Source: Dechloromonas sp. A34
Lineage (GTDB): Bacteria > Pseudomonadota > Gammaproteobacteria > Burkholderiales > Rhodocyclaceae
Direction of reading: 5' to 3'
NCBI RefSeq assembly: GCF_026261605.1
Contig: NZ_CP102486.1
Span: 4,340,001 to 4,404,000 of the forward strand
DNA: 64,000 nucleotides
Positions 1 through 18,730 of this stretch are shown in pieces. Within the stretch, counting starts at the first letter, position 1, and the number at the start of each line of letters is the position of its first letter. The translations under genes were made by a program, and so were the position numbers. The notes beneath the pieces were generated by a model, which saw nothing but the letters and a program-made list of their open reading frames with translations, ran no database searches and was not told the origin of the DNA.

Positions 1-1132
1 CCGGGGTGACGCCTTCGGTATGGCAGTCGTCGAGCGCCGTGTGGTCGAAGGTGCCAACCTGGCAACCGGCGTTGTAGTCGGCGACCGTACGGACGAAAGC
101 CGTCGCGTCGAGGCCGAGCTGACGGGCCAGTTCTTCCAGGGTATTGGCCTTGGCTCCCGGAAACACCGGTGGCATGAAACGGCCGACCGCCTTGGCGTCG
201 ATGACCGAATAACCGACCTGCCCCGGTTGCTGGGCGACCAGGCGACCCCAGATGGCATAGCGTTTCGGCCAGAAGTCCTCACCTTCGTCGTAGAAACGCT
301 GGGCGAACTTGTTGACCACGATACCCAGCGAGACGCAATCGATACGGGTACAGATGCCGCCATCGTAGAGTGGAGCGCGCGCGTCGATGGCAACGCAATG
401 CGATTGCGAAGGATCGCCGATGAAGTCGGCGCCAGCTGCCTGCATGGCCTTGAGCAGCACCCCCTGATTGAAACGGGTGCCGCGGATGGCAAAATTGTCG
501 GCCGGCCATTCGCCGTCCTCATTCTGCCCCCAGGCTTCACGCAGCCATTCGCGGTTGGACTCGAAGCCGCCGGCCGCCATGACGCAAGTTTTGGCGGTGA
601 TCCGTTGGCTACCGACCCAGGCTGCCTGGAACCGTCCATCAACGACTTCAATGCGGTCAACCGGCGATTCATAGCGAATTTCAACACCCAGCGCTTCGGC
701 GCTGCGATAGTAGGCGTTGACCAGCGCTTTACCGCCGCCCATGAAGAAGGCGTTGGTCCGGGACAACTGCAGCGTGCCTGACAGCGAGGGCTGGAAATGT
801 ACGCCGTGCCGGCGCATCCAGCCCCGGCACTTGGAGGATTCGCGGATTGCCAGGCGGGCCAGCTGTTCGTTGGTGTTGCCGCCGGTGACCTTGAGCAGGT
901 CCTGCCAGAACTCTTCCTCCGGATAGGCCTCGGTCAGCACATCCTGAGGTGCATCGTGCATGCAGCGCAGGTTGCGGGTATGGCTGGAATTGCCGCCCCG
1001 ACGATCGCGCGGCGCGGCTTCGAGCAGCAGCACCGAGGCGCCGGCCTCGCGTGCCATCAGGGCCGCGCACAGCGCCGCATTGCCGCCGCCGATGACCAGT
1101 ACATCGACGGCATTGGAATTGTTGTCACTCAT
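1..1132 (-). CDS. tcuA: FAD-dependent tricarballylate dehydrogenase (TcuA-like), 3' end beyond window
   Basis: A flavoprotein of the fumarate reductase/succinate dehydrogenase type. The open frame runs off the left edge after about 377 codons, so the C-terminus is missing. The N-terminus carries the FAD dinucleotide fold VLVIGGGNAALCAA followed by GGNSSHTRNLR, which resembles tricarballylate dehydrogenases. TcuA oxidises tricarballylate to cis-aconitate. Two adjacent ATGs are possible; the one at 1132 has GGAG six bases upstream and is preferred. It is the last visible gene of the minus-strand cluster. TcuA is reoxidised by TcuB, an Fe-S/heme membrane protein, which is not seen and may lie beyond the edge. 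Substrate is inferred from similarity; another unsaturated or saturated polycarboxylate is possible. Confidence 0.78.
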   Translation of the reverse strand, partial: MSDNNSNAVDVLVIGGGNAALCAALMAREAGASVLLLEAAPRDRRGGNSSHTRNLRCMHDAPQDVLTEAYPEEEFWQDLLKVTGGNTNEQLARLAIRESSKCRGWMRRHGVHFQPSLSGTLQLSRTNAFFMGGGKALVNAYYRSAEALGVEIRYESPVDRIEVVDGRFQAAWVGSQRITAKTCVMAAGGFESNREWLREAWGQNEDGEWPADNFAIRGTRFNQGVLLKAMQAAGADFIGDPSQSHCVAIDARAPLYDGGICTRIDCVSLGIVVNKFAQRFYDEGEDFWPKRYAIWGRLVAQQPGQVGYSVIDAKAVGRFMPPVFPGAKANTLEELARQLGLDATAFVRTVADYNAGCQVGTFDHTALDDCHTEGVTP

Positions 1133-1220
1133 CATTCGCTCCTTTTGAGCCCTTGTTGATTTCAGCGAAGACACTATCTCGCAACGGTGTGGCGATACCC
1201 CAAGCCGCTCCGACATCCCC

Positions 1221-2156
1221 CTATCTCGATTCGAGATGCCCCCGTGTGATGCCCTTCCAGCGGCCATCGTCAATCAGCTGTCCGACTACCTGACGGAGTA
1301 CGCCGCGGGTCGCCAACGCAGCTGGCGAGAGTTCGTCGTCGGACAGGCTGCACAGCAGGTTGCGCCGCGCGGTGCCGACGTCGGCAATTTCCGCCCAGCG
1401 CAGCCGGCTGCTCGCTTCCGGCTGGCGGGCCAGCGCCGACCACGGTTGCAAGGTAGCGGCCATGCCGGCCGCCACCATGTCCATCAGCACGGTCAGGGAA
1501 TCAACTTCGGCGACGATGTTGGCATTCCGGTTCAGGCTGCCAAAGGCGGCATCGATGACCCGACGCAGTCCGTGGCGATGAGTCGGCAGCACCAGCGCCG
1601 TATCGGCAACGCCAGCCAGCGTCGTCGGCAGTTGATCGATCCGGCTCTGGGCACCGCAGACGAAGAAGAGCCGTTCGTCGAGCAGGTGCTGGACGGTCCA
1701 GCGCCTGGCCTGATCGGCACCAAAAAGCACGGCGAGGTCGATTTCGCGGGCATTGAGCATCTGCCCGAGATGCCCCGACATCCCCTCGACCAGATGGATG
1801 CGGATATCCGGATACTGCACCTGCATTGCCTGCAGCAGCGGCACGCCGAGAACGCCCGCAGTGGTCGGCGCCAGGCCCAGGCCGACGACACCGGAAAGGC
1901 GCGACTGCCGTGCCGCCAGCATTGCCTCGTCGGCATGGCGTAAGGCGAGCTGGGCATGGGAGAGGAAGGCGATGCCGGCATCCGTCGGAATGATGCCGCT
2001 CGGCGTTCGCTGCAACAGGCGCGTCGCAAGTTCGCCTTCGAGACGCTGGATTTGCAGACTGACGGCAGACTGCGCCACACCCAGATCGAGCGCCGCCTGG
2101 CTGATGCTGCCCAGTTCGATGGTCCGCACTAGGTAACGCAGTTGCCGCAGTTCCAT
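1221..2156 (-). CDS. LysR-family transcriptional regulator inside the catabolic cluster
   Basis: A 311-residue LysR regulator. An N-terminal winged helix (MELRQLRYLV, then SISQAALDLGVAQSAVS, residues 1-60) is followed by a substrate-binding domain. The gene starts 12 bases after the lyase gene stops and is codirectional with tcuA, so it is probably co-transcribed rather than divergent from its target as is usual. In Salmonella a LysR protein, TcuR, sits next to tcuABC, so this may be its counterpart. The Nac/Cbl-like N-terminus does not settle which effector is bound. A second LysR gene lies at the other end of the cluster. Confidence 0.88.
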   Translation of the reverse strand: MELRQLRYLVRTIELGSISQAALDLGVAQSAVSLQIQRLEGELATRLLQRTPSGIIPTDAGIAFLSHAQLALRHADEAMLAARQSRLSGVVGLGLAPTTAGVLGVPLLQAMQVQYPDIRIHLVEGMSGHLGQMLNAREIDLAVLFGADQARRWTVQHLLDERLFFVCGAQSRIDQLPTTLAGVADTALVLPTHRHGLRRVIDAAFGSLNRNANIVAEVDSLTVLMDMVAAGMAATLQPWSALARQPEASSRLRWAEIADVGTARRNLLCSLSDDELSPAALATRGVLRQVVGQLIDDGRWKGITRGHLESR

Positions 2157-2168
2157 CGTAGCGCCCCT

Positions 2169-3524
2169 TTACTCTTGCCGAGCCTTGCGTTGCAGTACCT
2201 TGTCCACCATCACGCCAGCCTGGCCGAGATAGTTGGCCGGGTCGCAAAGCTTGGCCAACGCCGCCCGGTCGAGGTGGGGATTGATTTCCGGATGCTCGGC
2301 CAGCAGGTCGAGCAGCGGGCGGTTGCTCTTGATCGCCGTGCGGCACAGGTCATAGACCAGATCGTGGGCGTATTCGCGGCCGATGTAGGGGCCGAGGCCC
2401 ATCATCACGGCTTCCGACATGACCAGGCCGTTGGTCAGTTCGATATTGGCCATCATGGCGGCCGGATCGACTTCCAGACCTTCGAGCACGAAGCGCGTCT
2501 GTTTGAGGGCACCAGCGGTCAGACAGAAGGCTTCCGGCAGCGCGATCCACTCGATTTCCCAAGGGCCGGTCGAGCGTTCGTGGTCGGCGATCATGGCATC
2601 CATCAGGGCGGCGGCATGCTGGCGGACGACCGAAACAGCGGCATGAATGTAGCAACTCGAAATCGGGTTGCGCTTCTGCGGCATGGTGCTGCTCGAACCG
2701 CGTCCCGGCGCAAACGGCTCGAAGACCTCGGCCACCTCGTGCTGCATCATGAGCTTGACGTCCATCGCTATCTTGCCGAGCGAACCGCCGACCAGACCGA
2801 GGAATGCGCCGACTTCGGCAATCGTGTCGCGTACCGTATGCCAGGCAATGTCGGGCTGGGCGAGGCCGAGTTCGGCCATCAGGCCGGCCTGGGTTTCCAT
2901 GGCGCCGCGCTCGATCGAGGCCAGCGTGCCGCAGGCGCCGCCGAACTCGCCCATCAACACGCGCGGCCGCAGTTGCTGCAGGCGTTCGCGGTGGCGCTCC
3001 ATGCCGGCCAGGATGGCCGCCGTCTTGAAACCGAAAGTCACCGGAATCGCCTGCTGCAGATTGCTGCGGCCGATCACCGGGGTATCGCGGTAGCGCAGGG
3101 AAAGATCGGCCAGGGCGGCGCAGATGGCTTTCAGTTCAGCCTCGACCAGATCGAGGCCCTCGCGGATCTGCATGACGGTAGCAGTGTCGGTGATGTCCTG
3201 GGTCGTCGCGCCCCAGTGGCAATATTCGCCGAGGCGGTCGCGGCACAGCGCGTTCAGTTGCGAAACGACGCCCAACACCGGGTAGCCGATGCGCTCGGTC
3301 TGGGCGCGCAGCTTGTCCATGTCGATCTTGTCGATATCGCAGTTTCGGACAATCTCATCGGCCGCTTCCTGCGGAATGATGCCGAGGCGGCCCTGAACGA
3401 CGGCCAGCGCGCGCTCGATGTCGAGATATTTTTCCGTCCGGTTGCGGTCGGACCAGACCTGACGCATAGCGTCAGTGCTGAAGATGTTGCCGAAGATACT
3501 AGAGTCGATGATGCTCGCGCCCAT
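2169..3524 (-). CDS. Class II fumarase/aspartase superfamily enzyme, carboxymuconate-cycloisomerase-like; candidate trans-aconitate decarboxylase
   Basis: A 451-residue member of the fumarase/aspartase/adenylosuccinate lyase superfamily. Visible landmarks are HWGATTQDITDTA (103-115), GRSNLQQAIPVTFG (152-165) and the superfamily signature GSSSTMPQKRNP (276-287). The LQQA motif in place of the THxQ motif of ordinary lyases points to the 3-carboxy-cis,cis-muconate cycloisomerase (PcaB) branch. No other protocatechuate or beta-ketoadipate gene is present, so a role in aromatic breakdown is unlikely. The fungal trans-aconitate decarboxylase Tad1, which forms itaconate, belongs to the same branch, and itaconate-type genes lie directly upstream. 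I infer a decarboxylase or lyase acting on a C6 tricarboxylate. The purine-pathway purB is a different gene, at 35-36.6 kb. Confidence 0.8.
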   Translation of the reverse strand: MGASIIDSSIFGNIFSTDAMRQVWSDRNRTEKYLDIERALAVVQGRLGIIPQEAADEIVRNCDIDKIDMDKLRAQTERIGYPVLGVVSQLNALCRDRLGEYCHWGATTQDITDTATVMQIREGLDLVEAELKAICAALADLSLRYRDTPVIGRSNLQQAIPVTFGFKTAAILAGMERHRERLQQLRPRVLMGEFGGACGTLASIERGAMETQAGLMAELGLAQPDIAWHTVRDTIAEVGAFLGLVGGSLGKIAMDVKLMMQHEVAEVFEPFAPGRGSSSTMPQKRNPISSCYIHAAVSVVRQHAAALMDAMIADHERSTGPWEIEWIALPEAFCLTAGALKQTRFVLEGLEVDPAAMMANIELTNGLVMSEAVMMGLGPYIGREYAHDLVYDLCRTAIKSNRPLLDLLAEHPEINPHLDRAALAKLCDPANYLGQAGVMVDKVLQRKARQE

Positions 3525-3566
3525 GGCGATGTCTCCTGATTCAATGTTGGGAAATATAGCTGTGCT

Positions 3567-4400
3567 TTAGTTCGTTGTTTGGCGATGCGTTTTTGTCATG
3601 CTTCGCGCCATGATGGCTTCAGCCTTGAGCACCACCGGCCGATCCACCATTTTTCCGTCGACCTGGACGGCTCCCGATGAATCCTTGGCGGCGGCCAGAA
3701 CCTTTTCGGCCCAGATCACTTCCTGCTCGCTCGGTCGGCTCAGTCGCTCGACGACCTCGACCTGCTTGGGATGAATGCACAGCTTGGCGGTGCAACCAAA
3801 GGCTCGGGCAAAGGCAAAGTCGGCTTCGGTCCGCGCCAGATCGTCGAGATTGGGCGTGACGCCGGCAACCGGCGGCGCCAGTTCGGCCGAGCGGGAAGCG
3901 ATGGCGATCTTGCTGTAGGGGTAAATCAGGCCCTGCTCGTCGCCCGGGAGATTGAGGTCGGCGGCATAGTCGAGGGTGCCGAAGGCAATGCGCTGCACAC
4001 CCTCGGCCAGCGCAATCTGGTCGATGTTGTTGATGCCGCGGGCCGACTCGACCAGCGCCACGATGACAACCTCAGGATTCGTGGCCGCAATGGTCATTTT
4101 CACCTGCTCGGCGAATTCCGTTTTCGGTAGCATTACCTGCCTGATGCCGGCCGCCTTGATCATTGCCAGATCGTCGGCATACCAGGGCGACAGTGCATCG
4201 TTGATGCGCACCACCAGGCGCTCGGGCGCGACGCCGGCGCTAGCGACCCAGTCGGCGATGGCCTGCCGCGCCGCCGCCTTGTCGGCCGGTGCCACTGCAT
4301 CCTCGAGATCAAGGATGATCGCCCCTGCCCCGGCGGCCAGTGCCTTGGCGAAGCGCTCGGGGCGATTGCCGGGAACGAACAGGTAGCTGACCGGCAGCAT
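3567..4400 (-). CDS. ccl: CitE-family lyase, probable (S)-citramalyl-CoA lyase
   Basis: A 277-residue HpcH/HpaI aldolase/citrate lyase beta-subunit family protein. The N-terminus SYLFVPGNRPERF, the acidic motif AIILDLEDAV and the metal-binding region VALVESARGINNI are typical. These enzymes cleave 3-hydroxyacyl-CoAs such as citramalyl-CoA or malyl-CoA. The ATG overlaps the CoA-transferase stop by one base (TGATG), so the two are translationally coupled. A longer upstream reading frame exists but is only the shadow of the CoA-transferase gene. With a CoA-transferase and a MaoC hydratase beside it, the best reading is the last step of itaconate degradation: citramalyl-CoA to acetyl-CoA and pyruvate. 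A beta-methylmalyl-CoA or malyl-CoA substrate is the alternative. Confidence 0.85.
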   Translation of the reverse strand: MLPVSYLFVPGNRPERFAKALAAGAGAIILDLEDAVAPADKAAARQAIADWVASAGVAPERLVVRINDALSPWYADDLAMIKAAGIRQVMLPKTEFAEQVKMTIAATNPEVVIVALVESARGINNIDQIALAEGVQRIAFGTLDYAADLNLPGDEQGLIYPYSKIAIASRSAELAPPVAGVTPNLDDLARTEADFAFARAFGCTAKLCIHPKQVEVVERLSRPSEQEVIWAEKVLAAAKDSSGAVQVDGKMVDRPVVLKAEAIMARSMTKTHRQTTN

Positions 4401-5581
4401 CAGATGGCTCCAGCGGCACGCAGTTCGGCAACGTCGCCGGCCGTGTAGCCCAGCCCGCCGAGGATCGCCTCGGTATGCTGGCCGAGCGCCGGCACCGCAT
4501 CCATGCGCGGCTCGCATTCCGTCCACGAACCGGGCGGCAACAGCGCCGGCACCTTGCCGACCGCCGTGTCGATTTCGCGCCAGCGCTTGCGCCCCTTTAA
4601 CTGCGGGTGATTCCAGACGTCCTGCATGGTGTTGAGGTTGGCATTGGCGATCTGGGCAGTTTCCAGGCGCTCGATGACCTGCTCGGCAGTCAGCTGGGCG
4701 AAGGCATCGACGATGATCTGACGCAGTTCGTCGCGTGCCGCGCTGCGTTTCGAATTCGTCGAAAAACGCTCCTCCTTGGCCAGTTCGGGGCGCAGCAACA
4801 CCTTGTCGCAGAATCCCGCCCACTCCCGTTCGTTCTGCAAGCCAAGCATGACGTTCTTGCCGTCGCCGGCCGGGAACGGGCCGTAGGGATAGATCGTCGC
4901 GTGGCTGGCGCCGGTGCGGCGTGGCGGCGATGCGCCGTCGATCGAGTAGTAGAGCGGATAGTTCATCCATTCGACCAGGCTCTCCAGCATCGAAATATCG
5001 AGGTGCTGGCCACGTCCGGTGATCTGGCGTTGCAACAGCGCCGCCAGGATGTTGCTGTAGGCGTACATGCCGGCCGAAATGTCGGCGATCGACGGGCCAG
5101 CCTTCGAGGGCTCGTCCTCAGTGCCGGTCACCGAGACGAAGCCCGACTCGCTCTGGATCAGCAGGTCGTAGGCCTTCTTGTCGCGGTAGGGACCATCATT
5201 GCCGTAGCCCGAGATGTCGCAGACGATGATCTCCGGCTTGATCGCCGACAGCGCCTCGTACGACAGGCCCAGGCGTGCGGCAGCACCGGGCGCCAGATTC
5301 TGGACCAGGATGTCGGCCTCCTCGGCGACCAGGCGTTGCAGAATCTTCTGTGCCTCCGGATGCTTGACGTCGAGGGTCAGGCTTTCCTTCGAGCGGTTAG
5401 TCCACACGAAGTGCGAGGCCAGGCCATGCACGCGCTCGTCGTAGCCGCGGGCGAAGTCGCCAACACCGGGGCGCTCGACCTTGATGACGCGGGCGCCGAG
5501 GTCGGCCAGTTGACGGGTGGCGAACGGGCCGGCGATGGCGTGTTCGAGGGTGATGACGGTAATACCTTCCAGCGGTCTCAT
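4400..5581 (-). CDS. ict: Family III CoA-transferase, probable itaconate CoA-transferase
   Basis: A 393-residue CaiB/BaiF (class III) CoA-transferase. The N-terminus MRPLEGITVITLEHAIAGPF, the segment DLGARVIKVERPG and the catalytic aspartate in AYDLLIQ (about residue 139) are clear. Length is normal for the family. It would move CoA from a donor, usually succinyl-CoA, to a dicarboxylate. It starts 10 bases after the hydratase gene and overlaps the lyase gene by one base. The trio CoA-transferase, MaoC-type hydratase and CitE lyase next to a TRAP transporter matches the itaconate degradation locus of Pseudomonas aeruginosa, hence the assignment; mesaconate or another C5 acid is not excluded. 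Confidence 0.85.
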   Translation of the reverse strand: MRPLEGITVITLEHAIAGPFATRQLADLGARVIKVERPGVGDFARGYDERVHGLASHFVWTNRSKESLTLDVKHPEAQKILQRLVAEEADILVQNLAPGAAARLGLSYEALSAIKPEIIVCDISGYGNDGPYRDKKAYDLLIQSESGFVSVTGTEDEPSKAGPSIADISAGMYAYSNILAALLQRQITGRGQHLDISMLESLVEWMNYPLYYSIDGASPPRRTGASHATIYPYGPFPAGDGKNVMLGLQNEREWAGFCDKVLLRPELAKEERFSTNSKRSAARDELRQIIVDAFAQLTAEQVIERLETAQIANANLNTMQDVWNHPQLKGRKRWREIDTAVGKVPALLPPGSWTECEPRMDAVPALGQHTEAILGGLGYTAGDVAELRAAGAI

Positions 5582-5591
5582 GCTGCTTTCC

Positions 5592-6437
5592 TTATTTCAG
5601 TACGGCGGTGGCATCCATGGTCAGCCAGCCTTCATGGTCTTCGGCCCACAGGTGGATGGTCTTGCCATCGGCCTGCGGCGTCCCGTTTACGATGAAGTGA
5701 TTGATGTCGAAAGTCGGCCGCACGGCGCGGAATTCGAACTTCGCGACCTCGGCATCCGGCATCTTGTGGCGCAAGAGGTCGAGCAAGAGCGTGGCGATCA
5801 TCGGCCCATGGACGATCAGGCCGGGATAGCCCTCGACCTCGGTCACGTACTTGCGGTCGTAGTGGATGCGGTGGCCGTTGAAGGTCAGCGCCGAGTAGCG
5901 GAAAAGCAGCACGTCGTCGGGCACCCATTTCGTCCGCCAGACGGGGTCCGGATAGGTGGCCTTGGGCGGCGGCGCGACGTCGTTCGGACCGGCCGCTTCG
6001 CGATAGACGATGTCGTGGTACTCAGTCAGCGCGACGGCGCTCTCGCCGGCCCGGCGCAGTTCATGGCGAACCTTGACGAAAACCAGCGGACCGGTGCGGC
6101 CGCTCTTCTCGGTGACGTCATGGATGGTCGAGGTGCGGGTCACCGTTTCGCCGATATGCAGCGGGGCATGGAATTCGAACTGACTGCCCGCCCACATCCG
6201 GCGCGGCAGCGGCACCGGTGGCAGGAAACCGCCACGCTTGGCATGGCCGTCGGGGCCGATTTCGGATTGGCGGTGCAGCGGCAGGAAATACAGCCAGTGC
6301 CACAGTGCCGGCAGCGGCGTGCCGTTGGCTGGGCGCTCGGCCGGCCGGTCGAAGGTCGCCGACAGCGCGGCATAGGGGGTGGCCGTGAAGAGATCGGTAA
6401 CTTCTTCGGAACGGCCGATCCAGTCTTTGAGGTTCAT
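5592..6437 (-). CDS. ich: MaoC/FAS1-like double hot-dog hydratase, probable itaconyl-CoA hydratase
   Basis: A 281-residue protein of the mesaconyl-C4-CoA hydratase/HTD2 type, with two hot-dog folds. The C-terminal half shows the hydratase-2 style motif NGHRIHYD, followed by GLIVHGPM. The N-terminal half has a conserved tryptophan- and proline-rich stretch (LPALWHWLYFLP). Members hydrate itaconyl-CoA or mesaconyl-CoA to citramalyl-CoA. Position between the TRAP genes and the CoA-transferase, with a 10-base gap to the latter, supports one transcript. The exact substrate is inferred from neighbours. Confidence 0.84.
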   Translation of the reverse strand: MNLKDWIGRSEEVTDLFTATPYAALSATFDRPAERPANGTPLPALWHWLYFLPLHRQSEIGPDGHAKRGGFLPPVPLPRRMWAGSQFEFHAPLHIGETVTRTSTIHDVTEKSGRTGPLVFVKVRHELRRAGESAVALTEYHDIVYREAAGPNDVAPPPKATYPDPVWRTKWVPDDVLLFRYSALTFNGHRIHYDRKYVTEVEGYPGLIVHGPMIATLLLDLLRHKMPDAEVAKFEFRAVRPTFDINHFIVNGTPQADGKTIHLWAEDHEGWLTMDATAVLK

Positions 6438-6520
6438 CGTTGATGGCTCCAGGCTTCAGTACGAAATCAATGGTTTGGGGTGAGGATTGCGGCGCCCGAT
6501 GTTGGCGGCGCCGCAATCGG

Positions 6521-7804
6521 TCAGAGCATGCCGAGTTGCTGCGGCAGCCAGAGGGAGAGGCCGGGCCAGTAGGTGACGAGGCCGAGGAAGACGAGCATCG
6601 AGAGCAACCACGGCCAGACCGCGACGGTCAGCTCGGTGATCCCCATCTTGGTGATGCCCGACGCGACATAGAGGTTCAGACCGACCGGCGGGTGGCACAT
6701 GCCGATTTCCATATTGACCACCATCAGGATGCCGAAATGGATCGGGTGGATGCCCAGCGCGACAGCCACCGGGAAGAGCAGCGGCGCGAAGATCAGCACG
6801 ATCGACGACGGCTCCATGAAGTTGCCGGCGACGAGCAGGATGATATTGACCGCCAGCAGGAAGGTGATGACGCCGAAGCCCTGCCCCAGCATCCAGTCGG
6901 CCAGCGATTGCGGGATGCTCTCGTTAGTCATGATGAAGGAGAACAACACAGCGTTGGTGATGATGTAGAGCAGCATCGCCGACATGTTGGCCGAGTTGAG
7001 CAGTACCCTCGGCACGTCCTTGAGGCTCAAATCCTTGTAGATGAAAATGGCGCAGATGAAGGCGTAGACCGCGGACATGGCAGCCGCTTCGGTCGGGGTG
7101 AAGATGCCGGTGTAGATACCACCCATGACAACGACGATCAGCAGCAGGCCCCAGACCGACGCCCGGAAAGCCTTCCAGCGCTCGCCCCAGGTCGCCTTCG
7201 GCTGACGCGGGTAGTCAAATTTCCTGGCGCGATACCAGGTGACACCGCCGAGCACCGTGGCGAGAGCCAGCCCGGGAATGACGCCGGCCATGAACAGGGC
7301 GCCGACCGAAGTATTGGTCGCCACCGAGAACATCACCATGCAGATCGACGGCGGAATCAGGATCCCCAGAGCGCCGGAGGTCGTGATAACGCCAGCCCCG
7401 AAGCGCGGCGGGAAGCCGGCCTTGACCATCGCCGGCAGCAGGATCGAGCCGATGGCGACGACGGTTGCCGGGCTGGAACCCGAGACTGCGGCAAACAGCG
7501 CACAGGCCAACACACCGGCCAGGCCGAGACCGCCATACCAGTGTCCGACCATCGACGAGGCAAAATTGATCATCCGCTTCGCCACTCCGCCGTGAGTCAG
7601 GAAGTTGCCGGCCAGGATGAAGAACGGAATGGCCATGATCTCGAACTTCTCGATGCCGGTGAACAACTTCAGGGCAACCGACTCGAGCGGCACCTGGGTC
7701 ATCGTGAACAGGAAGGTAAGGACGGTCAGGCCGAGCGAAATCGAGATCGGCATACCGGTCAGCATGAGGACGGCCAGCAGGCCAAAAATTACCAGGGCGC
7801 TCAT
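6521..7804 (-). CDS. dctM: TRAP transporter large permease (DctM type)
   Basis: A 427-residue, highly hydrophobic protein of the DctM/TRAP large-subunit family with about 12 predicted membrane segments. The N-terminus (MSALVIFGLLAVLMLTGMPI) and the motif FFILAGNFLTHGGVAKRMI are typical. It forms the sodium-coupled translocation channel for carboxylates captured by DctP. Its ATG overlaps the dctQ stop (ATGA). It is followed 83 bases later by the hydratase gene. Paired with itaconate-type genes, it probably imports a C5 or C6 di- or tricarboxylate. Confidence 0.93.
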   Translation of the reverse strand: MSALVIFGLLAVLMLTGMPISISLGLTVLTFLFTMTQVPLESVALKLFTGIEKFEIMAIPFFILAGNFLTHGGVAKRMINFASSMVGHWYGGLGLAGVLACALFAAVSGSSPATVVAIGSILLPAMVKAGFPPRFGAGVITTSGALGILIPPSICMVMFSVATNTSVGALFMAGVIPGLALATVLGGVTWYRARKFDYPRQPKATWGERWKAFRASVWGLLLIVVVMGGIYTGIFTPTEAAAMSAVYAFICAIFIYKDLSLKDVPRVLLNSANMSAMLLYIITNAVLFSFIMTNESIPQSLADWMLGQGFGVITFLLAVNIILLVAGNFMEPSSIVLIFAPLLFPVAVALGIHPIHFGILMVVNMEIGMCHPPVGLNLYVASGITKMGITELTVAVWPWLLSMLVFLGLVTYWPGLSLWLPQQLGML

Positions 7805-8541
7805 TTCGGTTCTCCTCCGAGGTCATCCTTGCGGCGATCGACAGCCACCGGCTCGTCGTGCACGCGGCGGTCTTCGCCAATCACGTTGTGCTTCAGGTCC
7901 AGCGGATGCAGGTTGTCGTCGAGATCGAATTCATTGACCTCGACATCTCCCGACTCGTCGGTCAGGCCATCGACGTGGCCGTGGTCGTGGTGCGGCAGTT
8001 CGCCGGTACGGATAAACGAGACGCAGACCTGCAGAAAACGGAAACACATCAGCGAGGAGCCAAGCGGAATCGCGCTGTACACCACCCAGGTCTGCCACTC
8101 CAGGTCGGGCGTGGTCGGCCCTTCCATGACATCCGTAAGATCAAGACCCAAGAGGCTGTAGAAGGCGTAATGGGCGCCGTTTTCCCAGACGAAGTGGCCG
8201 CCCATGGTGGCGACGATGCCGGTAAAAGAGGCACCGGCAAGCAGGCCGAAAACGATGAACTTGAAACGATTGCTGTCGCTTAGACGATTGATCAGCACAT
8301 CGACCCCGACGTGGATGCCGGTGCGAACGCCGTAGGCAGCGCCAAACTTGGCCATCCAGACGAAAAGAATGATGGTCAGTTCTTGCGCCCAGCTCATGTT
8401 GATCGAGAGCAGCAGATCCTGCACGCCCGGGATGGCGAATCCGGACATGTAGCGATGAACCACTGCAAAGAAAGTGATGAGTGTCGCCACGCCGATCAGC
8501 AGCGTGATGAGCAGCTCTTCCAATTTATCGAGAAATCTCAT
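7801..8541 (-). CDS. dctQ: TRAP transporter small permease (DctQ type) with a long acidic C-terminal tail
   Basis: A 246-residue small TRAP subunit. Residues 1-177 hold the four-helix DctQ domain. The last 69 or so residues are hydrophilic and strongly charged, with a HHDHGH cluster and many Asp/Glu residues; this tail makes the protein longer than most DctQ subunits. The subunit joins DctM in the membrane. The tail's role is unknown; it could be cytoplasmic and bind metal or a partner. Overlap with dctM by four bases indicates translational coupling. Confidence 0.9.
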   Translation of the reverse strand: MRFLDKLEELLITLLIGVATLITFFAVVHRYMSGFAIPGVQDLLLSINMSWAQELTIILFVWMAKFGAAYGVRTGIHVGVDVLINRLSDSNRFKFIVFGLLAGASFTGIVATMGGHFVWENGAHYAFYSLLGLDLTDVMEGPTTPDLEWQTWVVYSAIPLGSSLMCFRFLQVCVSFIRTGELPHHDHGHVDGLTDESGDVEVNEFDLDDNLHPLDLKHNVIGEDRRVHDEPVAVDRRKDDLGGEPK

Positions 8542-8604
8542 GTTTCCCCCGTAGAGAGTAAAACTGGCCAGCAGCGTAGGAATCCTGCCGGCCGACGATG
8601 CGGA

Positions 8605-9600
8605 TTACTTGGCCTGGCCGGTTTCCTTGCGGATGGCGTCGATCAGTTCCTTGCCGATGCGGGGGGCCAGTTCGTCCTGGACCGGCAGCAGGGCCTTGAC
8701 CCAGCGTGCCTTTTCTTCGGCACTTGGCGTGTGGACGGTGCTCTTGCCGGAGGCCTTGATCGCAGCCAAGGACTTCGCTTCGTCTTCTTCGGCGACCTTG
8801 TCGTTGTAGGTCGTGGCATCCTGCATCGCGGCGCTGACTTCGGCCTTGATGTCCGCTGGCAGCTTGTCCCAGAAGGCCTTGTTGACCACGACGACGTAGC
8901 CGCTGTAGGTGTGGCGGGTTAGGGTGATGTGTTTCTGAACCTCATACTGCTTCTGGGTATAGAGGTTGGAAAGGTTGCCGTCAGCTCCATCGACAACGCC
9001 GGTCTGCAGCGCCTGGTAGACCTCGGAGAAGGCCATGGTCTGCGGCATGCCGCCGATCGCCTTGATGATGGCCTGGTTGACCTTGGAAGAATTGATGCGG
9101 ATCTTCTGACCCTTGGCCTCGTCCGGTGTGCGGATCGGCTTGTTTGAGCTCAGCACGCGGAAACCGGCATCCCAGTAGGAGAGGCCAACCATGCCCCGGG
9201 CTTCGAGCTTCTTCAGCAGCGCGGCGCCGATCGGGCCGCGCGTCACGCGGTGCAGCGCCGCTTCATCCGGGAAGATGTACGGCAGATCGAAAGCCTCGAA
9301 CTCCTTGACGCCGGCCGGACCGAACTTGCCGGCCACCGGAGCCAGCATCTGGACACTACCCATCTGCAGGGCTTCAAGCTCTTCCTTGTCCTTGTAGAGC
9401 GTCGAGTTGGCGAAGACCTCGACCTTGACGCGGCCCTTGGTGCGCTTTTCGACCTGCTGTTTGAAATGCTCTGCCGCCTGCCCTTTCGGCGTATCGATTG
9501 CGGCGACGTGCGAGAACTTGATCAGGATCGGCTCCTGGGCGTGCGACATGCCGGCGAAAGCCAGGCCGAGAATGGCGCTCAGAGTGATAATCGGTTTCAT
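8605..9600 (-). CDS. dctP: TRAP transporter substrate-binding protein (DctP type)
   Basis: A 331-residue periplasmic solute receptor. The start at 9600 is chosen because it gives a clean signal peptide (MKPIITLSAILGLAFAGMSHA) and has AGGAG nine bases upstream; a longer frame upstream is spurious. The mature protein shows DctP features such as LIKFSHVAAIDTPKGQAAEHF and GMVGLSYWDAGFRVLSS, including the Arg used to bind a carboxylate. It captures an organic acid in the periplasm for DctQM. It is the second gene of the cluster, after prpF. Confidence 0.93.
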   Translation of the reverse strand: MKPIITLSAILGLAFAGMSHAQEPILIKFSHVAAIDTPKGQAAEHFKQQVEKRTKGRVKVEVFANSTLYKDKEELEALQMGSVQMLAPVAGKFGPAGVKEFEAFDLPYIFPDEAALHRVTRGPIGAALLKKLEARGMVGLSYWDAGFRVLSSNKPIRTPDEAKGQKIRINSSKVNQAIIKAIGGMPQTMAFSEVYQALQTGVVDGADGNLSNLYTQKQYEVQKHITLTRHTYSGYVVVVNKAFWDKLPADIKAEVSAAMQDATTYNDKVAEEDEAKSLAAIKASGKSTVHTPSAEEKARWVKALLPVQDELAPRIGKELIDAIRKETGQAK

Positions 9601-9668
9601 GTGTTGTCTCCTCTTTAATGGAATGGGTGCCGGCAATGACCGGGCAATAGTGATAAAGGGTTGATGAA

Positions 9669-10784
9669 TCAGGCGGCCGCGGCGAGGTCGCTTTTCGCTT
9701 TGGCCTTCAGGCAGTGATCCGCGACGAAGACCTCCCCTGCAAGCAGGGGTCGGGCGGAGGTCAGCATTGCGGCGCCGACCAGTTTGGGGATGCCGGTCCA
9801 TGGGTCGGCCGACGAAACGATGTGGCAACTCATCTTGCCGCTCGGATGTTCGATGACGATCTGATGCGCCTCATTCTGGTTGAGGACAGCCAGTTCTTCG
9901 GCGATCGTGTCCGGTGTATGGCAGGCTGCGGCCAGCGCCATCGCACCGGTCGCGGCAAACGCCGGGTGACAGTTCGAGGGCACGAAGTAACGCGAGGCAA
10001 TGGTCCCACCGGCCCGCGGCGGCGCGATGATGGCGATCTTCGGAACACCCAGCCCCGGTGCATCGGCCAGGCCCATCAGGCGCGCCCCGGCCGCCCGCAC
10101 TGCTTCCAGGCGCTGCAGGAAGTTCGGATCGTTATCGAGTTCCTGCTTGCTCTCGTAGCCGCTCTTGCCCAGCGACTCGGCCTTGACCAGCACAATCGGG
10201 ATCGCAAAGTCGATGCAGGTGACTGGCATGCCTAAAATTTCGTCACGCGGCGAACCGGTGGGCAGCAGGCGGCCGGTCTTGGTGCCGGTCGGATCGAAGA
10301 ACTGTAGCGCGACCGGAGCGCATTTGCCGGGCACGCCATCGACTTCGAAGGTGCCGCTATAGGTTACCTGGCCGCCCGGCGTCTGAACGGTTGCTTCGAC
10401 GACTTTCTGGCTGTTGGTGTTGAGGATGCGCACCTTGGTCACCGGACTGCTCGCCTTGACGAGGCCGTGTTCGATGGCGAACGGGCCAACGCCGGCCAGC
10501 ATGTTGCCACTGTTGGGGAGCACATCGACCAGATCGCGGGCCACCGACACCTGGGCAAACAGGTATTCGACATCGGCATCGGGCTGGGACGACGGGCCAA
10601 CAATCACAACCTTGCTGCTATGATCGTTGCCGCCGCCCATGCCGTCGATCTGCCGGGCGTCGGGCGAGCCCATGGCGGCCAGCAGCATGCGGTCGCGGGC
10701 GGCAGCGTCGGCGGGCAGATCCTTCGCGAAGAAGAACAGGCCTTTTGACGAACCGCCTCGCATCAGGACGCAGGGAATGCGCAA
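9669..10784 (-). CDS. PrpF/GalD-family isomerase, candidate aconitate isomerase
   Basis: A 371-residue PrpF-family protein with the diaminopimelate-epimerase fold. The N-terminus RIPCVLMRGGSSKG and DARQIDGMGGGNDHSSK are close to 4-oxalomesaconate tautomerase (GalD). The start codon is TTG at 10784, with GGAG six bases upstream. Family members move a double bond in tricarboxylates: cis/trans-aconitate, 2-methylaconitate or oxalomesaconate. No gallate or methylcitrate genes are nearby, so an aconitate isomerase is favoured. Lys58 matches the catalytic lysine region, but NSGN stands where I expect NCGN in many relatives, so the cysteine appears to be a serine. It is the first gene of the operon. 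Confidence 0.82.
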   Translation of the reverse strand: MRIPCVLMRGGSSKGLFFFAKDLPADAAARDRMLLAAMGSPDARQIDGMGGGNDHSSKVVIVGPSSQPDADVEYLFAQVSVARDLVDVLPNSGNMLAGVGPFAIEHGLVKASSPVTKVRILNTNSQKVVEATVQTPGGQVTYSGTFEVDGVPGKCAPVALQFFDPTGTKTGRLLPTGSPRDEILGMPVTCIDFAIPIVLVKAESLGKSGYESKQELDNDPNFLQRLEAVRAAGARLMGLADAPGLGVPKIAIIAPPRAGGTIASRYFVPSNCHPAFAATGAMALAAACHTPDTIAEELAVLNQNEAHQIVIEHPSGKMSCHIVSSADPWTGIPKLVGAAMLTSARPLLAGEVFVADHCLKAKAKSDLAAAA

Positions 10785-10853
10785 TTGTGTCTCCTCAGTA
10801 GATTGGTGTTTTCCTGAGTTGAATAATAGGCAAATCGTTGCTCGGTTAGAAAT

Positions 10854-10876
10854 GCAATAAATTTGAAATTTATTGC
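10854..10876. promoter_or_regulatory. Perfect 23-bp palindrome between prpF-like gene and divergent lysR
   Basis: Arms GCAATAAATTT and AAATTTATTGC flank a single central G, with no mismatch. The element starts 70 bases upstream of the prpF TTG and ends about 108 bases upstream of the lysR ATG, in AT-rich DNA unlike its surroundings. It is probably an operator for the divergent LysR protein. The symmetric pair around the centre gives T-N13-A, not the classical T-N11-A, so a different class of regulator remains possible. Confidence 0.65.
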
Positions 10877-10984
10877 GATCTACGCATATATTCAGTGCAG
10901 TAGAATCGGACCAATTGACGGAACACGGCTGATATCGACAAGGCAGGCTCAGCCATGAGTGACGGATTGACGGAGACTGGGCAA

Positions 10985-11887
10985 ATGAAGATCGATTTTG
11001 ATGGCATTCAGGCGTTCGTGGTAATTGCGGAATTGGGCGGCTTCAATAAGGCCGCCGAACACCTGCACGTTACGCAGACGGCGCTAACCCGACGCGTCCA
11101 GAAACTCGAGTCTTATCTGGGATTGAAACTGCTTGACCGTACGACCCGCTATGTCGAACTGACGGCCGTCGGTCGTGACTTCCTGCCGCAGGCCAGGGCC
11201 ATCGTCGGCGAGATGACGGCTGCGGTCGGTCGCCTCAAGGACATGTCGAAAAATGCCCGAGGCAATTTCACGCTGGCCTGTGTACCGACGATGGCCGCCC
11301 AGATACTGCCCAAGCTGATGCGCGCATACGCCAATAGCTACCCGCGCAACCGGATTCGCCTACTCGATGCGACTTCATATGAAGTTCGCGACGCGGTCCT
11401 GAATAGCCAGGCCGAGTTGGGTATTGGGATACATGGAGAACACCATCCGGATCTGACCGAGATCCCACTGTTCGATGATCCATTGATGTTCTTCTGTCGC
11501 GAGTCGAATCCACTCAGCAATATGAAATCAGTAACCTGGTCCGACATGAGCGGAGCGGACCTCATTGTAGTTAGCAACCTGACGGCAACCCGGGTCTTCA
11601 TGGACTATCAACTCGCCAAGCGCGGCATCAGCCTGAGTGGCGCCTATGAAGTCCAACACCACGCAACGGCAATTAGTCTGGTTGCTGCCGGAGTCGGCTG
11701 CGCGATCCTGCCGGCATCGACGTTTCAGGAAGGTGACAGACCGGGCGTTCGCAGAATTCCGTTGATCAGTCCGGTCGTCAAACGCAAGGTCATTCTGGTC
11801 ACTCGAAAGAACTGCACCTTATCTCCGGCAGCAGAGGCTTTCTACGATTTAGTCAAGAAAACGCAATTTACAGATACCAATGCTTAA
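10985..11887 (+). CDS. LysR-family transcriptional regulator, divergent from the catabolic operon
   Basis: A 300-residue LysR protein. The N-terminus MKIDFDGIQAFVVIAELGGF and the helix-turn-helix FNKAAEHLHVTQTALTRRV are standard, followed by the periplasmic-binding-like effector domain. I prefer the ATG at 10985, with GGAG nine bases upstream, over the ATG at 10955, because it gives the usual family N-terminus. Divergence from prpF makes it the likely regulator of the whole cluster through the palindrome between them. It differs in sequence from the other LysR protein at 1.2-2.2 kb, so the cluster may have two inputs. Confidence 0.88.
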   Translation: MKIDFDGIQAFVVIAELGGFNKAAEHLHVTQTALTRRVQKLESYLGLKLLDRTTRYVELTAVGRDFLPQARAIVGEMTAAVGRLKDMSKNARGNFTLACVPTMAAQILPKLMRAYANSYPRNRIRLLDATSYEVRDAVLNSQAELGIGIHGEHHPDLTEIPLFDDPLMFFCRESNPLSNMKSVTWSDMSGADLIVVSNLTATRVFMDYQLAKRGISLSGAYEVQHHATAISLVAAGVGCAILPASTFQEGDRPGVRRIPLISPVVKRKVILVTRKNCTLSPAAEAFYDLVKKTQFTDTNA

Positions 11888-12422: not shown

Positions 12423-13745
12423 TCAGATCAGCCCGTATTTTTTGAGCTTGTCGTGCAGCGTCGTCCGCGCCACTTTCAGCGCCTCGCTGGTGCGTGCGAT
12501 GTTGCCGTCCTGCTTGGTGAATTCGTTGGCGATCAGCACGCGCTCGTAGTTCTCGACCGCGTCGGTCAGCGATTGCGGCGTGCTGCCCAGGCCCGGCGTC
12601 GCCGCATCGCGGCCGATGCCCAGGGCGTGGCAGTCGGCGGCGTTGCGCAGTTCGCGGATATTGCCCGGCCAGTCCTGGGCCATCAGGCGGCGCAGGTATT
12701 CCGTGGTCAGCACCGGCGGCGGCCGGTTGTAGCGTTTGGCGGCCTGGAGCAGGAATTCGTCGTAGAGGGCCGGGATGTCCTCGCGCCGTTCGCGCAGGGC
12801 AGGCAGTTCGATGCGCACGACGTTCAGGCGGTAATAGAGGTCGGCGCGGAACTTGCCCTGATCGGACAGCGCCTTGAGGTCTTCCTTGCTTGCCGCGATG
12901 ACGCGGCAGGCGACCGGCACCAGCTGGTTCGAGCCGAGGCGCTCGATGACGCGCTCCTGCAGCACGCGCAGCAGCTTGATCTGCATGGCCATCGGCATCG
13001 ACTCGACCTCGTCGAGAAACAGCGTGCCGCCGCTGGCGTATTCGATCTTGCCGATGCGTCGCTTCTGCGCCCCGGTGAAAGCCCCCGGTTCGTGGCCGAA
13101 AAGCTCGCTGTCGAGCAGGTTGTCGGCCATGCCGCCGCAATTCAAAGCGACATAGGTTTCCGGCTTGGCGCCCGAGAGGTCGTGCAGGCAGCGCGCCACC
13201 ATCTCCTTGCCGGTGCCGGTTTCGCCGAAGATCAGCACATCGACCGCGGCATGGGCGACATCGAGGATCAACTGGCGGACCCGCGCCATCTGCGGCGAGC
13301 GGCCGAGCAACCGGGCTTCGAGGTCGTCGCGGTGATCGAGCCGGCGGCGCAGGGCTTCGACTTCGAGGACCAGTTCGCGCTTTTCCAGCGCCCGGCGGAC
13401 GACCTCGACCAGATCACCGGTCGAGAACGGTTTCTGCATGAAATCGTAGGCGCCGCGGCGCATCGCCTCGACCGCCAGGGTGACATCGCCGTGGCCGGTA
13501 ATGATGATCACCGGCAGATCGGCGTCGAGCTGGACGACCCAGCGCAGCAGGTCCATGCCGTCCATGCCGGGCAGCCGCATGTCGGTGACCACGATGCCGG
13601 GGTAGCCGGCCGCCAGGCGCTTCTGCGCCTCTTCCGCCGAGCCCACGGCATCGACCGCGATGCCGGCCAGTTGCATGGCCTGTTCGCAGCCGAGGCGGAC
13701 ATTGGGATCGTCTTCGACGAGCAGGACAGACAATTGCGGCTTCAT
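12423..13745 (-). CDS. Sigma-54-dependent response regulator (DctD/AauR family)
   Basis: A 440-residue NtrC-type regulator. Residues 1-120 are a receiver with phosphoacceptor Asp55 (VVTDMRLPG); the central AAA+ domain has Walker A GETGTGKE, the sigma-54 contact loop GAFTGA and the sensor region; the C-terminus has a Fis-type helix-turn-helix (NIARTSEALKVARTTLHDKL). It activates sigma-54 RNA polymerase. The start at 13745 overlaps the kinase stop (ATGA). A longer frame upstream is the kinase shadow. Being codirectional with gltIJKL, and with a sigma-54 promoter in front of gltI, it most likely controls acidic amino acid uptake, as AauR does in Pseudomonas. Confidence 0.93.
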   Translation of the reverse strand: MKPQLSVLLVEDDPNVRLGCEQAMQLAGIAVDAVGSAEEAQKRLAAGYPGIVVTDMRLPGMDGMDLLRWVVQLDADLPVIIITGHGDVTLAVEAMRRGAYDFMQKPFSTGDLVEVVRRALEKRELVLEVEALRRRLDHRDDLEARLLGRSPQMARVRQLILDVAHAAVDVLIFGETGTGKEMVARCLHDLSGAKPETYVALNCGGMADNLLDSELFGHEPGAFTGAQKRRIGKIEYASGGTLFLDEVESMPMAMQIKLLRVLQERVIERLGSNQLVPVACRVIAASKEDLKALSDQGKFRADLYYRLNVVRIELPALRERREDIPALYDEFLLQAAKRYNRPPPVLTTEYLRRLMAQDWPGNIRELRNAADCHALGIGRDAATPGLGSTPQSLTDAVENYERVLIANEFTKQDGNIARTSEALKVARTTLHDKLKKYGLI

Positions 13746-15670
13746 GGCGAACCCTTGGTACAGGCAGCGGTGGAAGAATCGGGTAGTGGCGGCAAGAGTA
13801 CGACAAAACGCGCCCCGCCGCCGGGAGCCGGGCCGGCCAGCAGTTCGCCGCCGAAATCGCGCAGGATGTCGCGCGAGATGGCGAGCCCGAGGCCGAGCCC
13901 CTCGCCCGGCTGCTTGGTCGTGAAGAAGGGCTCGAACAGGTGTTCCAGGGCCTTCTCCGAAAAACCGACGCCGCTGTCGCTGACGGCCAGCGCGACCTGC
14001 CCGGAACTGGCGCGTTCGGCGGAAAAGCTCAGGCGGCGCAGCGGCTCGTCGGCCATTGCATCGATGGCGTTGCCGATCAGATTGACCAGCACCTGCTGCA
14101 GGCGGTTGCGGTCGCACCAGGCGATCCAGGTCTCGGGGCCGAACTGCCGTTCGACCGTGACGTTCTGCTTGCGCAGGCGCTGGTCGAACAGGAACAGGGC
14201 GCTGTCGACCGCCTGCGCGACATCGACCGCTCCCGACACGGCCGGCGACTTGCGGGCGAAGGTCTTGAGCGGCGTGATGATGCCGCCGGCCTGCTCGGCC
14301 AGCTGGCCGACGATACCGAGATTCTTCTCGGCCGTGGCGAGGTCGCCGCGATGCATGAATTCGACGGCATTGGCCGCCAGCGTGCGGATCGCCCCCAGCG
14401 GCTGGCTGAGCTCGTGCGTGATGCCGGTCGCCATCTGGCCGAGCACGGCCATCTTGCCGGCCTGCACCAGTTCGTCCTGGGCGGCGCGCAGCGTCTGCTC
14501 GGCGCGCTGGCGCTCGACCACTTCGCGCTGCAGCCGGTCGACCGCTTCCGAGAGGTCGGCCGTGCGCTCGCCGACCTTGTGTTCGAGTTCCTGATTGGCG
14601 CGCTCCAGCATCGCCCGCGCCTCTTCGCGGCCGCGCGCCAGACGGCGGCGCTGCTTGGCGTAGAGGGCGCCGAGCAGCAGGCAGCCGAGCGCCGCAGCAG
14701 CCAGCGCGGCATGGGTCGCCGCCTGTTCGGCGACCGGCCGCAGATCGGAAAAGACGACGATGCGCCAGGCGGTGCCGGGCAGGTTACGGGCCAGCGCCAG
14801 ATAGCTGCGGCCACCGGCGGCCTGATTGACCGCGCCGCGCAGGTGCCGGGGCAGGCGGACGACGGCGCCCTCGTCGGCGCCGGCGAGCGCGATGTCGAGA
14901 CTGACCGTGCCCAGCGACTGGCCGGCGAACTGCTGGCGACTGAGTTGTTCCAGCTCCTCCCGCCCTTTCTGTTGCAGGGTGGCGTAGCGCCATTCCGGTG
15001 GCGAGGCGAGCAGTACGATGCCGTTGCTGTCGACGATCAGGGCCGGCGCCTCCTGGCCCAGCCAGCGCCGCTCCAGTTCGCGGATGCCGGACTTGACGAC
15101 GGCGACACCGATCACCCGCCAGTCCTGGCGCTCGTCGCGGATGGGCAGCGCGAAGTAGTAGCCCGGCTCGTGGCGGACATGGTCGACGGCGTAATGGCGG
15201 GCCGGGACGCCGGTCGCCGCATCGCTGAAGAAAGGCATGTAGGCCAGGTTGGCGCCGAGCAGGTTGTCGGAAAAGATCCAGTCGCTGGAGGCGACCACCC
15301 GGCCCTGGGTGTCGAGCACGAAAATCGCCGGCCCGCCGAGGTTGTCGTTCATCTGTTGCAGGAAACGGTTGGCGGGCCCCTGCAGGCTGTCCTGCTTGTC
15401 CTCCGGCGCCCGCAGCAGGGCGAGGACGTCGGGGCTCAACTGGATGGCAGCCGGGATCGCCGCATGCCGCGTCACTTCGCTGTCGATGGCGGCGGCCAGG
15501 ATGTCGAGCTGGTGGCTAGCTTCCTGGCGCATGTGGTCGATACCGTCGCGTTCGGAGCGGTGATAGACCAGCAGGCTGGCGAGGAGAAAAAGCACCAGCA
15601 GCAGGGCCAGGCCGAGCGCACGGTGCGGCCTGGGCAAGGATGAAGGAATCGGCGGGCTGGATTCAGGCAT
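13742..15670 (-). CDS. Membrane sensor histidine kinase (DctB/AauS family)
   Basis: A 642-residue sensor kinase. It has an N-terminal membrane segment (about 15-35), a large periplasmic Cache-type domain to about 300, a second membrane segment near 310-330, a coiled-coil linker (RANQELEHKVGERTADLSEAVDRL), the H-box with HELSQPLGAIR, and a HATPase_c domain with N and G boxes. This is the DctB layout, which senses dicarboxylates directly; here acidic amino acids are likelier given the glt genes. It is coupled to the downstream regulator by a four-base overlap and lies 68 bases after marC. Confidence 0.93.
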   Translation of the reverse strand: MPESSPPIPSSLPRPHRALGLALLLVLFLLASLLVYHRSERDGIDHMRQEASHQLDILAAAIDSEVTRHAAIPAAIQLSPDVLALLRAPEDKQDSLQGPANRFLQQMNDNLGGPAIFVLDTQGRVVASSDWIFSDNLLGANLAYMPFFSDAATGVPARHYAVDHVRHEPGYYFALPIRDERQDWRVIGVAVVKSGIRELERRWLGQEAPALIVDSNGIVLLASPPEWRYATLQQKGREELEQLSRQQFAGQSLGTVSLDIALAGADEGAVVRLPRHLRGAVNQAAGGRSYLALARNLPGTAWRIVVFSDLRPVAEQAATHAALAAAALGCLLLGALYAKQRRRLARGREEARAMLERANQELEHKVGERTADLSEAVDRLQREVVERQRAEQTLRAAQDELVQAGKMAVLGQMATGITHELSQPLGAIRTLAANAVEFMHRGDLATAEKNLGIVGQLAEQAGGIITPLKTFARKSPAVSGAVDVAQAVDSALFLFDQRLRKQNVTVERQFGPETWIAWCDRNRLQQVLVNLIGNAIDAMADEPLRRLSFSAERASSGQVALAVSDSGVGFSEKALEHLFEPFFTTKQPGEGLGLGLAISRDILRDFGGELLAGPAPGGGARFVVLLPPLPDSSTAACTKGSP

Positions 15671-15738
15671 GGCGTGGGCCGCAGGGCGAACGTCGCATTG
15701 TAACGTCCGGCAGGTGCCCCACTGCGGCGCTCACGGGC

Positions 15739-16383
15739 TCAGGCTCCGGCCATGAAACTGCGGATGCCCGAACCGACGAACTGGACGCCGATGCAGATCA
15801 GCAGAAAGCCGGTCAGGCGAGCCACGACATTGATGCCCTCGCTGCCCAGGCGGCGGGAAACCCAGCGCGCCGAACGCAGCACCAGCCAGATCAGCAGGCA
15901 GGTCGCGGCGATGCTGGCCACCGTCGCCGAATAGGCGATCAGACGCCGGACGCCGCCGGACAGTTCGGCGATCTCCGAGGAGATGCCGATCACCGTGGCC
16001 AGCGCGCCCGGCCCGGCGATGCCGGGCATGGCCAGTGGAAAGAAGGCAAAGCTGCCACTACCGCCGACCAAAGCGGCGTCGCCGGTGCCGAACAGCATGC
16101 GGTAGCCGATCAGCGCCACGGTCAGCCCGCCGGCGATGCGCAAGGCACCGAAGGAAATTCCGAAGGCTTCGAGGATGAAGACCCCGGCAAAGAGGCCGCC
16201 GGTGAGTAGCAGGAAGCCGTAGAAGCAGGCCCGCCGCGCTTCCAGCGAAGCTGCCGGAGCGGCGAGGTCGGCGGCCAGGGTCAGGAAGACCGGAATCTTC
16301 GAGAGGGGGTTGGTGATGGTCGCCAGACTGATCAAGCCGCCGAGAAAAAAACTGACCAGCAGCCGGTTCAGGCTGTCTTCCAT
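15739..16383 (-). CDS. MarC family integral membrane protein
   Basis: A 214-residue MarC/UPF0056 (NAAT family) protein with about six membrane helices. Typical segments are TITNPLSKIPVFL near residue 20 and FFPLAMPGIAGPGALATVIGI in the middle. The start at 16383 is chosen from family length; the longer frame adds an unrelated sequence. Function is not established for most members; amino acid transport has been suggested for some archaeal relatives. It lies 25 bases after gltL and before the kinase gene, so it probably belongs to the glutamate/aspartate transcript. Confidence 0.88.
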   Translation of the reverse strand: MEDSLNRLLVSFFLGGLISLATITNPLSKIPVFLTLAADLAAPAASLEARRACFYGFLLLTGGLFAGVFILEAFGISFGALRIAGGLTVALIGYRMLFGTGDAALVGGSGSFAFFPLAMPGIAGPGALATVIGISSEIAELSGGVRRLIAYSATVASIAATCLLIWLVLRSARWVSRRLGSEGINVVARLTGFLLICIGVQFVGSGIRSFMAGA

Positions 16384-16408
16384 GTGCGATGGGCTCCGCT
16401 GAAACCGC

Positions 16409-17137: not shown

Positions 17138-17161
17138 GGGATTTCTCCTGGCGGGCGGCGA

Positions 17162-17842: not shown

Positions 17843-17843
17843 G

Positions 17844-18581: not shown

Positions 18582-18608
18582 ATTGAATCCCTCCTTTGGT
18601 TGATCTTC

Positions 18609-18636
18609 CCGGGGCCGCCCGGAAAACAGGCCCCGG
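18609..18636 (-). other. Stem-loop between gltI and gltJ
   Basis: Perfect 8-bp arms CCGGGGCC and GGCCCCGG with a 12-base loop. There is no T run after the stem on the minus strand, so it is more likely an RNA-stabilising or processing hairpin that raises binding protein over permease than a full terminator. This is common in ABC operons. Confidence 0.6.
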
Positions 18637-18730
18637 TGTTTCAGTCGCTCAGCATTCCCAGAAGATGCGCTGGAGATCCTTGCTGTCCTGCGTCCTGGTC
18701 ATTCGGCGGCTCGCGTCCGGTTCTCGTCGA

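Follow-up and report, generated by a model that had tools for sequence, protein, structure and literature searches.

Can a bacterium consume tricarballylate or aconitate by way of itaconate? This question is raised by a gene cluster at the left end of a 64,000-nucleotide stretch of the genome of Dechloromonas sp. A34 (the window, G000:C1:4340001-4404000; the genome is a single contig of 4.76 Mb), in which a lyase related to the fungal trans-aconitate decarboxylase (Tad) Tad1 is encoded together with predicted itaconate-degradation enzymes, a tricarballylate dehydrogenase, a PrpF-family isomerase and a tripartite ATP-independent periplasmic (TRAP) transporter. We consider this cluster to be, with a probability of about 0.7, an operon for the use of tricarballylate and/or aconitate through itaconate. 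This reading is carried by the relationship of the lyase to Tad1, by a serine residue restricted to their common clade and by the conserved linkage of the lyase to genes resembling those for itaconate breakdown. All seven gene classes named in the original prediction, from the isomerase to TcuA, are present on the minus strand in one collinear run (1-10784), but the list was incomplete, since tcuA is cut at the window edge, tcuB lies outside the window and two LysR-type regulator genes have to be added:

1..1135, minus strand: N-terminal part of tcuA, tricarballylate dehydrogenase; the gene extends beyond the left window end (whole gene in locus L004, NF006130 763 bits, cut-off 369)
1221..2156, minus strand: LysR-type regulator within the run, between the lyase gene and tcuA (Pfam HTH_1 and LysR_substrate above cut-off)
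2169..3524, minus strand: predicted trans-aconitate decarboxylase (Tad1 540 bits; clade 100/100; S277 and R317; fold match 9h3i)
3567..4400, minus strand: CitE-type lyase, predicted citramalyl-coenzyme A (CoA) lyase, Ccl-like (HpcH_HpaI above cut-off; closest protein of solved structure 8khl, named 'Probable acyl-CoA lyase beta chain', at 171 bits)
4400..5581, minus strand: class III CoA-transferase, predicted itaconate CoA-transferase, Ict-like (CoA_transf_3 363 bits)
5592..6437, minus strand: predicted itaconyl-CoA hydratase, Ich-like (8khg 245 bits)
6521..7804, minus strand: TRAP large permease DctM (TIGR00786 518 bits, cut-off 268)
7801..8541, minus strand: TRAP small permease DctQ (PF04290 68 bits, cut-off 28)
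8605..9600, minus strand: TRAP substrate-binding protein DctP with an altered pocket, compared with that of IctP (TIGR00787 314 bits)
9669..10784, minus strand: PrpF-family isomerase with Ser at the PrpF cysteine position (PrpF 375 bits; NF033377 455 bits, cut-off 440; PNSGN motif)
10955..11887, plus strand: divergent LysR-type regulator (Pfam HTH_1 and LysR_substrate above cut-off)

To the left of the window (locus L004) tcuA is completed and followed directly by tcuB, a major facilitator superfamily gene, a 2-hydroxyacid dehydrogenase gene and a second, split PrpF gene. By their coordinates, adjacent genes in the run from PrpF to TcuB overlap or are separated by at most about 85 bases. The order of the cluster is repeated in relatives (e.g. 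L006, L007, L009, L012 and L013), so the arrangement is more than chance. A promoter scan gave results at chance level, and a terminator scan returned 13 hits against 8.5 +/- 2.6 in shuffled sequences.

The lyase and its neighbourhood

Databases name the lyase as a member of the carboxymuconate cycloisomerase or adenylosuccinate lyase family. Among proteins of solved structure, its best match is Tad1 of Ustilago maydis (540 bits), followed by a Mesorhizobium 'fumarate lyase' (3c8t, 453 bits) and PcaB of Pseudomonas putida (371 bits). In a tree of 66 rows, from which five long rows were excluded (a quick tree of 71 rows agrees), the lyase and Tad1 belong to one 48-row clade with support of 100/100, and PcaGH-linked PcaB proteins fall outside it. 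Residues S277 and R317 of the lyase correspond to S320 and R360 of Tad1, both of which were mutated by the depositors of the structure, and from the existence of that mutant we infer that S320 is catalytic. Serine occupies the S277 position in 48/48 clade rows and in all 80 of the lyase loci retained for comparison, with Gly or Ala in 23/23 other rows; the R317 position is Arg in all 71 rows and hence is not clade-specific. Tad1 also matches 13 of 22 clade columns that were picked without the fungi. The fold of the lyase matches 9h3i, and P. putida PcaB is 40-42% identical in the structural match; fold comparison separates Tad1 from PcaB poorly. Tad1 turns trans- but not cis-aconitate into itaconate (PMC4720413).

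The three genes that adjoin the lyase gene encode candidates for the steps of itaconate degradation. The hydratase has just two strong solved relatives, the best being 8khg, 'Itaconyl-CoA hydratase' (245 bits, residues 5-266), and the next match is unrelated (E 0.3). The best NCBIfam model for the CitE-type lyase is RipC_Ccl, at 144 bits and thus under the cut-off of 375. The CoA-transferase belongs to the class III family (CoA_transf_3), as does the Ict of Pseudomonas aeruginosa; it passes no NCBIfam equivalog cut-off, and these models do not specify the substrate.

Linkage of these genes to the lyase is conserved. From 251 relatives confirmed in named genomes 80 loci were kept, 25 of which had short flanks and were set aside, leaving 55 flanked by 6 kb or more on each side for the counts (one label per reading frame, fused PrpF-TctC frames counted once). 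Ich is found no more than 6 kb from the lyase in 51 of these 55 relatives, CaiB in 50 and CitE in 45, with the full trio in 43 and at least one of the three in 52. The corresponding numbers for all 80 loci are 68, 68, 61, 55 and 74, and three loci (L031, L051 and L068) are without any of Ich, CaiB and CitE. In a sample of 399 genomes of the order there are 62 lyase places, 6 of them of the Tad clade (at least 76% identity); when the lists were compared by eye, Ich lay at about 2 kb or less from the lyase in 5 of the 6 (G451 being the exception), and none of the 56 others had it inside 10 kb. Homology, active-site residues and neighbourhood together support, at the level of sequence, the proposal that this carboxymuconate-cycloisomerase-like lyase is a trans-aconitate decarboxylase: Tad1 is its nearest solved relative and shares its clade, S277 is found only there among the rows compared, and the Ich-, Ict- and Ccl-type neighbours are conserved.

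The lyase might instead be a genuine carboxymuconate cycloisomerase, or belong elsewhere in the superfamily (acting, for example, on a different substituted succinate), with the trio degrading another C5 acid made by it. The database names agree with this explanation, as does the score against one of the two curated PcaB models missed by the lyase, which is a narrow miss (TIGR02426, 354.1 against a cut-off of 355.75; NF006554, 497.5 against 595), and the window PrpF passes the 4-oxalomesaconate tautomerase model NF033377. PcaB shares the fold of the lyase but belongs to another clade, has Gly at the S277 position and is accompanied by PcaGH. Clade membership, S277 and N155 argue against this explanation, and PcaGH occurs within 10 kb of the lyase in 0 of the 55 relatives. 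Among 32 further regions from other genomes, PcaGH is present in 11, and Ich in 0 of those 11. Genome-wide, we found no second lyase of this group and a single intradiol-dioxygenase match (PF00775), distant from the cluster. We regard this explanation as very unlikely. Assignment to the protocatechuate PcaB was rejected on clade, residues and neighbours, and a gallate or 4-oxalomesaconate role, which has PrpF alone in its favour, was set aside.

The fungal Tad1 sequences (P0121 and P0122) group with P0130 (100/99) in a clade whose other members are database and bacterial proteins, a nesting which suggests that smut fungi received the gene from bacteria. A search with a stretch of Tad1 returned an identical protein of 516 residues, one from Pseudozyma hubeiensis and a fragment at 89% identity, then proteins at 60-64% identity, several of which are named as bacterial and many of which are labelled carboxymuconate cycloisomerase. 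A sister group of lyases (L130, L131, L132, L135 and L136), 50-55% identical, adjoins a GntR regulator and is without Ich; TctC is present in 4 of these 5 loci, and two of them (L130 and L135) have genes of the fumarase type. Perhaps these represent another tricarboxylate-related lyase.

Transport and the imported substrate

Does the cluster simply import and degrade itaconate and related C5-dicarboxylates in the manner of P. aeruginosa, with the lyase in a side role? The Ich, Ccl-like and TRAP genes resemble the ict-ich-ccl and IctPQM set of that organism as described in the available parts of two papers (PMC12599236, PMC9875883), and the receptor belongs to a C4/C5-dicarboxylate family. The operon described there is, however, without the lyase, PrpF and TcuAB, and its receptor pocket is different. 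The window DctP retains the carboxylate clamp residues K41, K94, R169, N213 and Y236 of IctP (pocket and clamp residues from PMC12599236) and differs at 5 of 12 pocket positions, with Ala 35, Val 91, Asn 171, Gly 209 and Ser 234 (V234 in IctP). This altered five-residue set is identical in 11 of the 13 receptors compared, including that of the window, and is absent in L026 and L065; it suggests that the ligand is neither succinate nor itaconate. In seven loci (L018-L023 and L080) TctC and TctA stand in for the TRAP genes, and a plain itaconate operon would leave both the lyase and TcuAB without explanation. We therefore judge it unlikely, and a plain itaconate import operon was rejected on the receptor pocket and the transporter swap.

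The PrpF reading frame continues into a TctC-type receptor in 31 of the 80 loci (e.g. L079:14743-16890), an isomerase and a periplasmic-type receptor being joined in an unusual way. Receptors of the TctC type bind many ligands, so that a tricarboxylate is favoured without proof. Taken together, the receptor pocket, the replacement by TctC and TctA, and the PrpF-TctC frames favour a tricarboxylate as the imported substrate.

PrpF, tricarballylate entry and distribution

Several observations weigh against a route from tricarballylate or aconitate through itaconate, and the weakest step is that assigned to PrpF. The window protein belongs to the PrpF family (PF04303, 375 bits, cut-off 27), in keeping with its prediction as an aconitate isomerase, but the cysteine of PrpF (C107) is replaced by Ser in this protein and in 15 of its relatives (motif PNSGN). 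In Shewanella, the PrpF variants C107S/A are reported to allow no growth on propionate alone and slower growth on mixed medium, and purified C107S to have no detectable activity (PMC5690661). The second PrpF (L004:13328-14116 and an adjacent piece) keeps the Cys motif and is broken into two parts that lie in different frames; it is intact in relatives. The window PrpF may work without the cysteine or have another substrate, or isomerisation may be done elsewhere. An aconitase-family gene at G000:C1:1655873-1657230 likewise matches in two pieces in different frames, and this and the split PrpF could reflect either genuine decay or wrong bases in the assembly.

A further difficulty concerns tricarballylate. 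Its entry through TcuA, as originally proposed, is upheld in that both TcuA and TcuB (NF011607, 696 bits, cut-off 524) exceed curated cut-offs, but TcuA lies within 10 kb of the lyase in only 17 of the 55 relatives, compared with PrpF in 42, TctA/TctC parts in 30, DctM in 12 and a sodium:dicarboxylate symporter in 12; tcuA is an optional input. TcuA exceeds its cut-off in 88 of the 399 genomes of the order and so is not rare, and it adjoins the lyase in several distinct arrangements (L006 type; L060, L077 and L080; L029; L084; L150 and L151). These counts bear on a variant of the same Tad-to-itaconate module, in which the natural substrate would be environmental trans-aconitate, tricarballylate a side input only where tcuAB is present, and PrpF the connection between cis- and trans-aconitate. 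The scarcity of TcuA relative to Ich (17 against 51 of 55) speaks for this variant, as do the TctC/TctA parts and the PrpF-TctC frames; the window's own tcuAB, in the same run, and the several arrangements in which TcuA adjoins the lyase speak against it. We see the odds on this variant as evenly balanced.

Finally, the Tad clade is uncommon among sampled genomes. It was found in 1 of 274 genomes of the class sample, where the best other match has 37% identity; in the phylum sample, with Tad1 as query, the window's own protein is the closest at 57% and others reach at most 48%. At the thresholds used, neither the lyase nor Ich was detected in any of 5 other genus members or of 7 genomes from the rest of the family, and TcuA matches in these genomes, at best of E 1e-12 or weaker, fall far short of the cut-off; the whole Tcu-Tad cluster is absent from these sampled genomes. 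Named carriers include Aromatoleum (e.g. Aromatoleum toluolicum, L009), Azoarcus, Denitromonas, Variovorax, Hydrogenophaga, Massilia, Azospirillum and a Granulosicoccus. We read the pathway as patchy, accessory and probably mobile; base composition gave no clear sign of an island edge. Further along the window (12423-19630), the list of open reading frames, read by eye, suggests a sensor kinase paired with a sigma-54-type regulator and, after these, an amino-acid-type ATP-binding cassette transporter.

The proposed route and known systems

The route from tricarballylate or aconitate through itaconate would proceed as follows. The TRAP system would import a tri- or dicarboxylate, and TcuAB, identified by curated models, would convert tricarballylate to cis-aconitate, the reaction known from Salmonella. 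The PrpF-type isomerase may then form trans-aconitate, which the lyase, judging from the clade, residues and fold it has in common with Tad1, would decarboxylate to itaconate. From their relatives and conserved linkage, the CoA-transferase, hydratase and CitE-type lyase are predicted to carry itaconate through itaconyl-CoA and citramalyl-CoA to acetyl-CoA and pyruvate. As a consequence, carbon would reach these products without aconitase, an enzyme that is inhibited by trans-aconitate and tricarballylate. The genome also carries aconitase-family genes. In Salmonella the cis-aconitate formed from tricarballylate enters the tricarboxylic acid cycle via aconitase; TcuA and TcuB of the window locus resemble the Salmonella system in exceeding the curated NCBIfam cut-offs, but the present cluster would offer a path by way of itaconate.

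The itaconate cluster of U. maydis likewise combines a PrpF-family protein, Adi1, with Tad1 (PMC4720413), and its lyase belongs to the same clade and has the same key residues. The fungus, however, makes and exports itaconate, whereas in the present cluster the lyase is found with degradation genes, TcuAB and an importer. In Bacillus velezensis, tarAB also concerns trans-aconitate as food, but TarA isomerises it to cis-aconitate, and the words 'itaconate' and 'decarboxylase' are absent from the main text of that paper (PMC11495376). Every enzyme class proposed here is already known; the bacterial Tad and this combination appear to be new. In the open-licence literature, subscription literature being outside the search, we found no bacterial trans-aconitate decarboxylase and no route from tricarballylate to itaconate.

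On a broader view, towards which we lean only slightly, this is an unrecognised route present across several proteobacterial orders, if uncommon in sampled genomes, in which tricarballylate and aconitate are eaten through itaconate by bacterial Tads that databases list as PcaB, with aconitase avoided; fungal Tad1 would be derived from such bacteria, eating having been turned into making. If this is true, itaconate, which is familiar as a product of fungi and as an immune metabolite of animals, would become an ordinary intermediate of bacterial food use, and a group of proteins annotated as 'PcaB' would have their names corrected. Bacterial trans-aconitate decarboxylases would become available to itaconate producers, and the cluster would illustrate a way for bacteria to feed on acids by which aconitase is poisoned.

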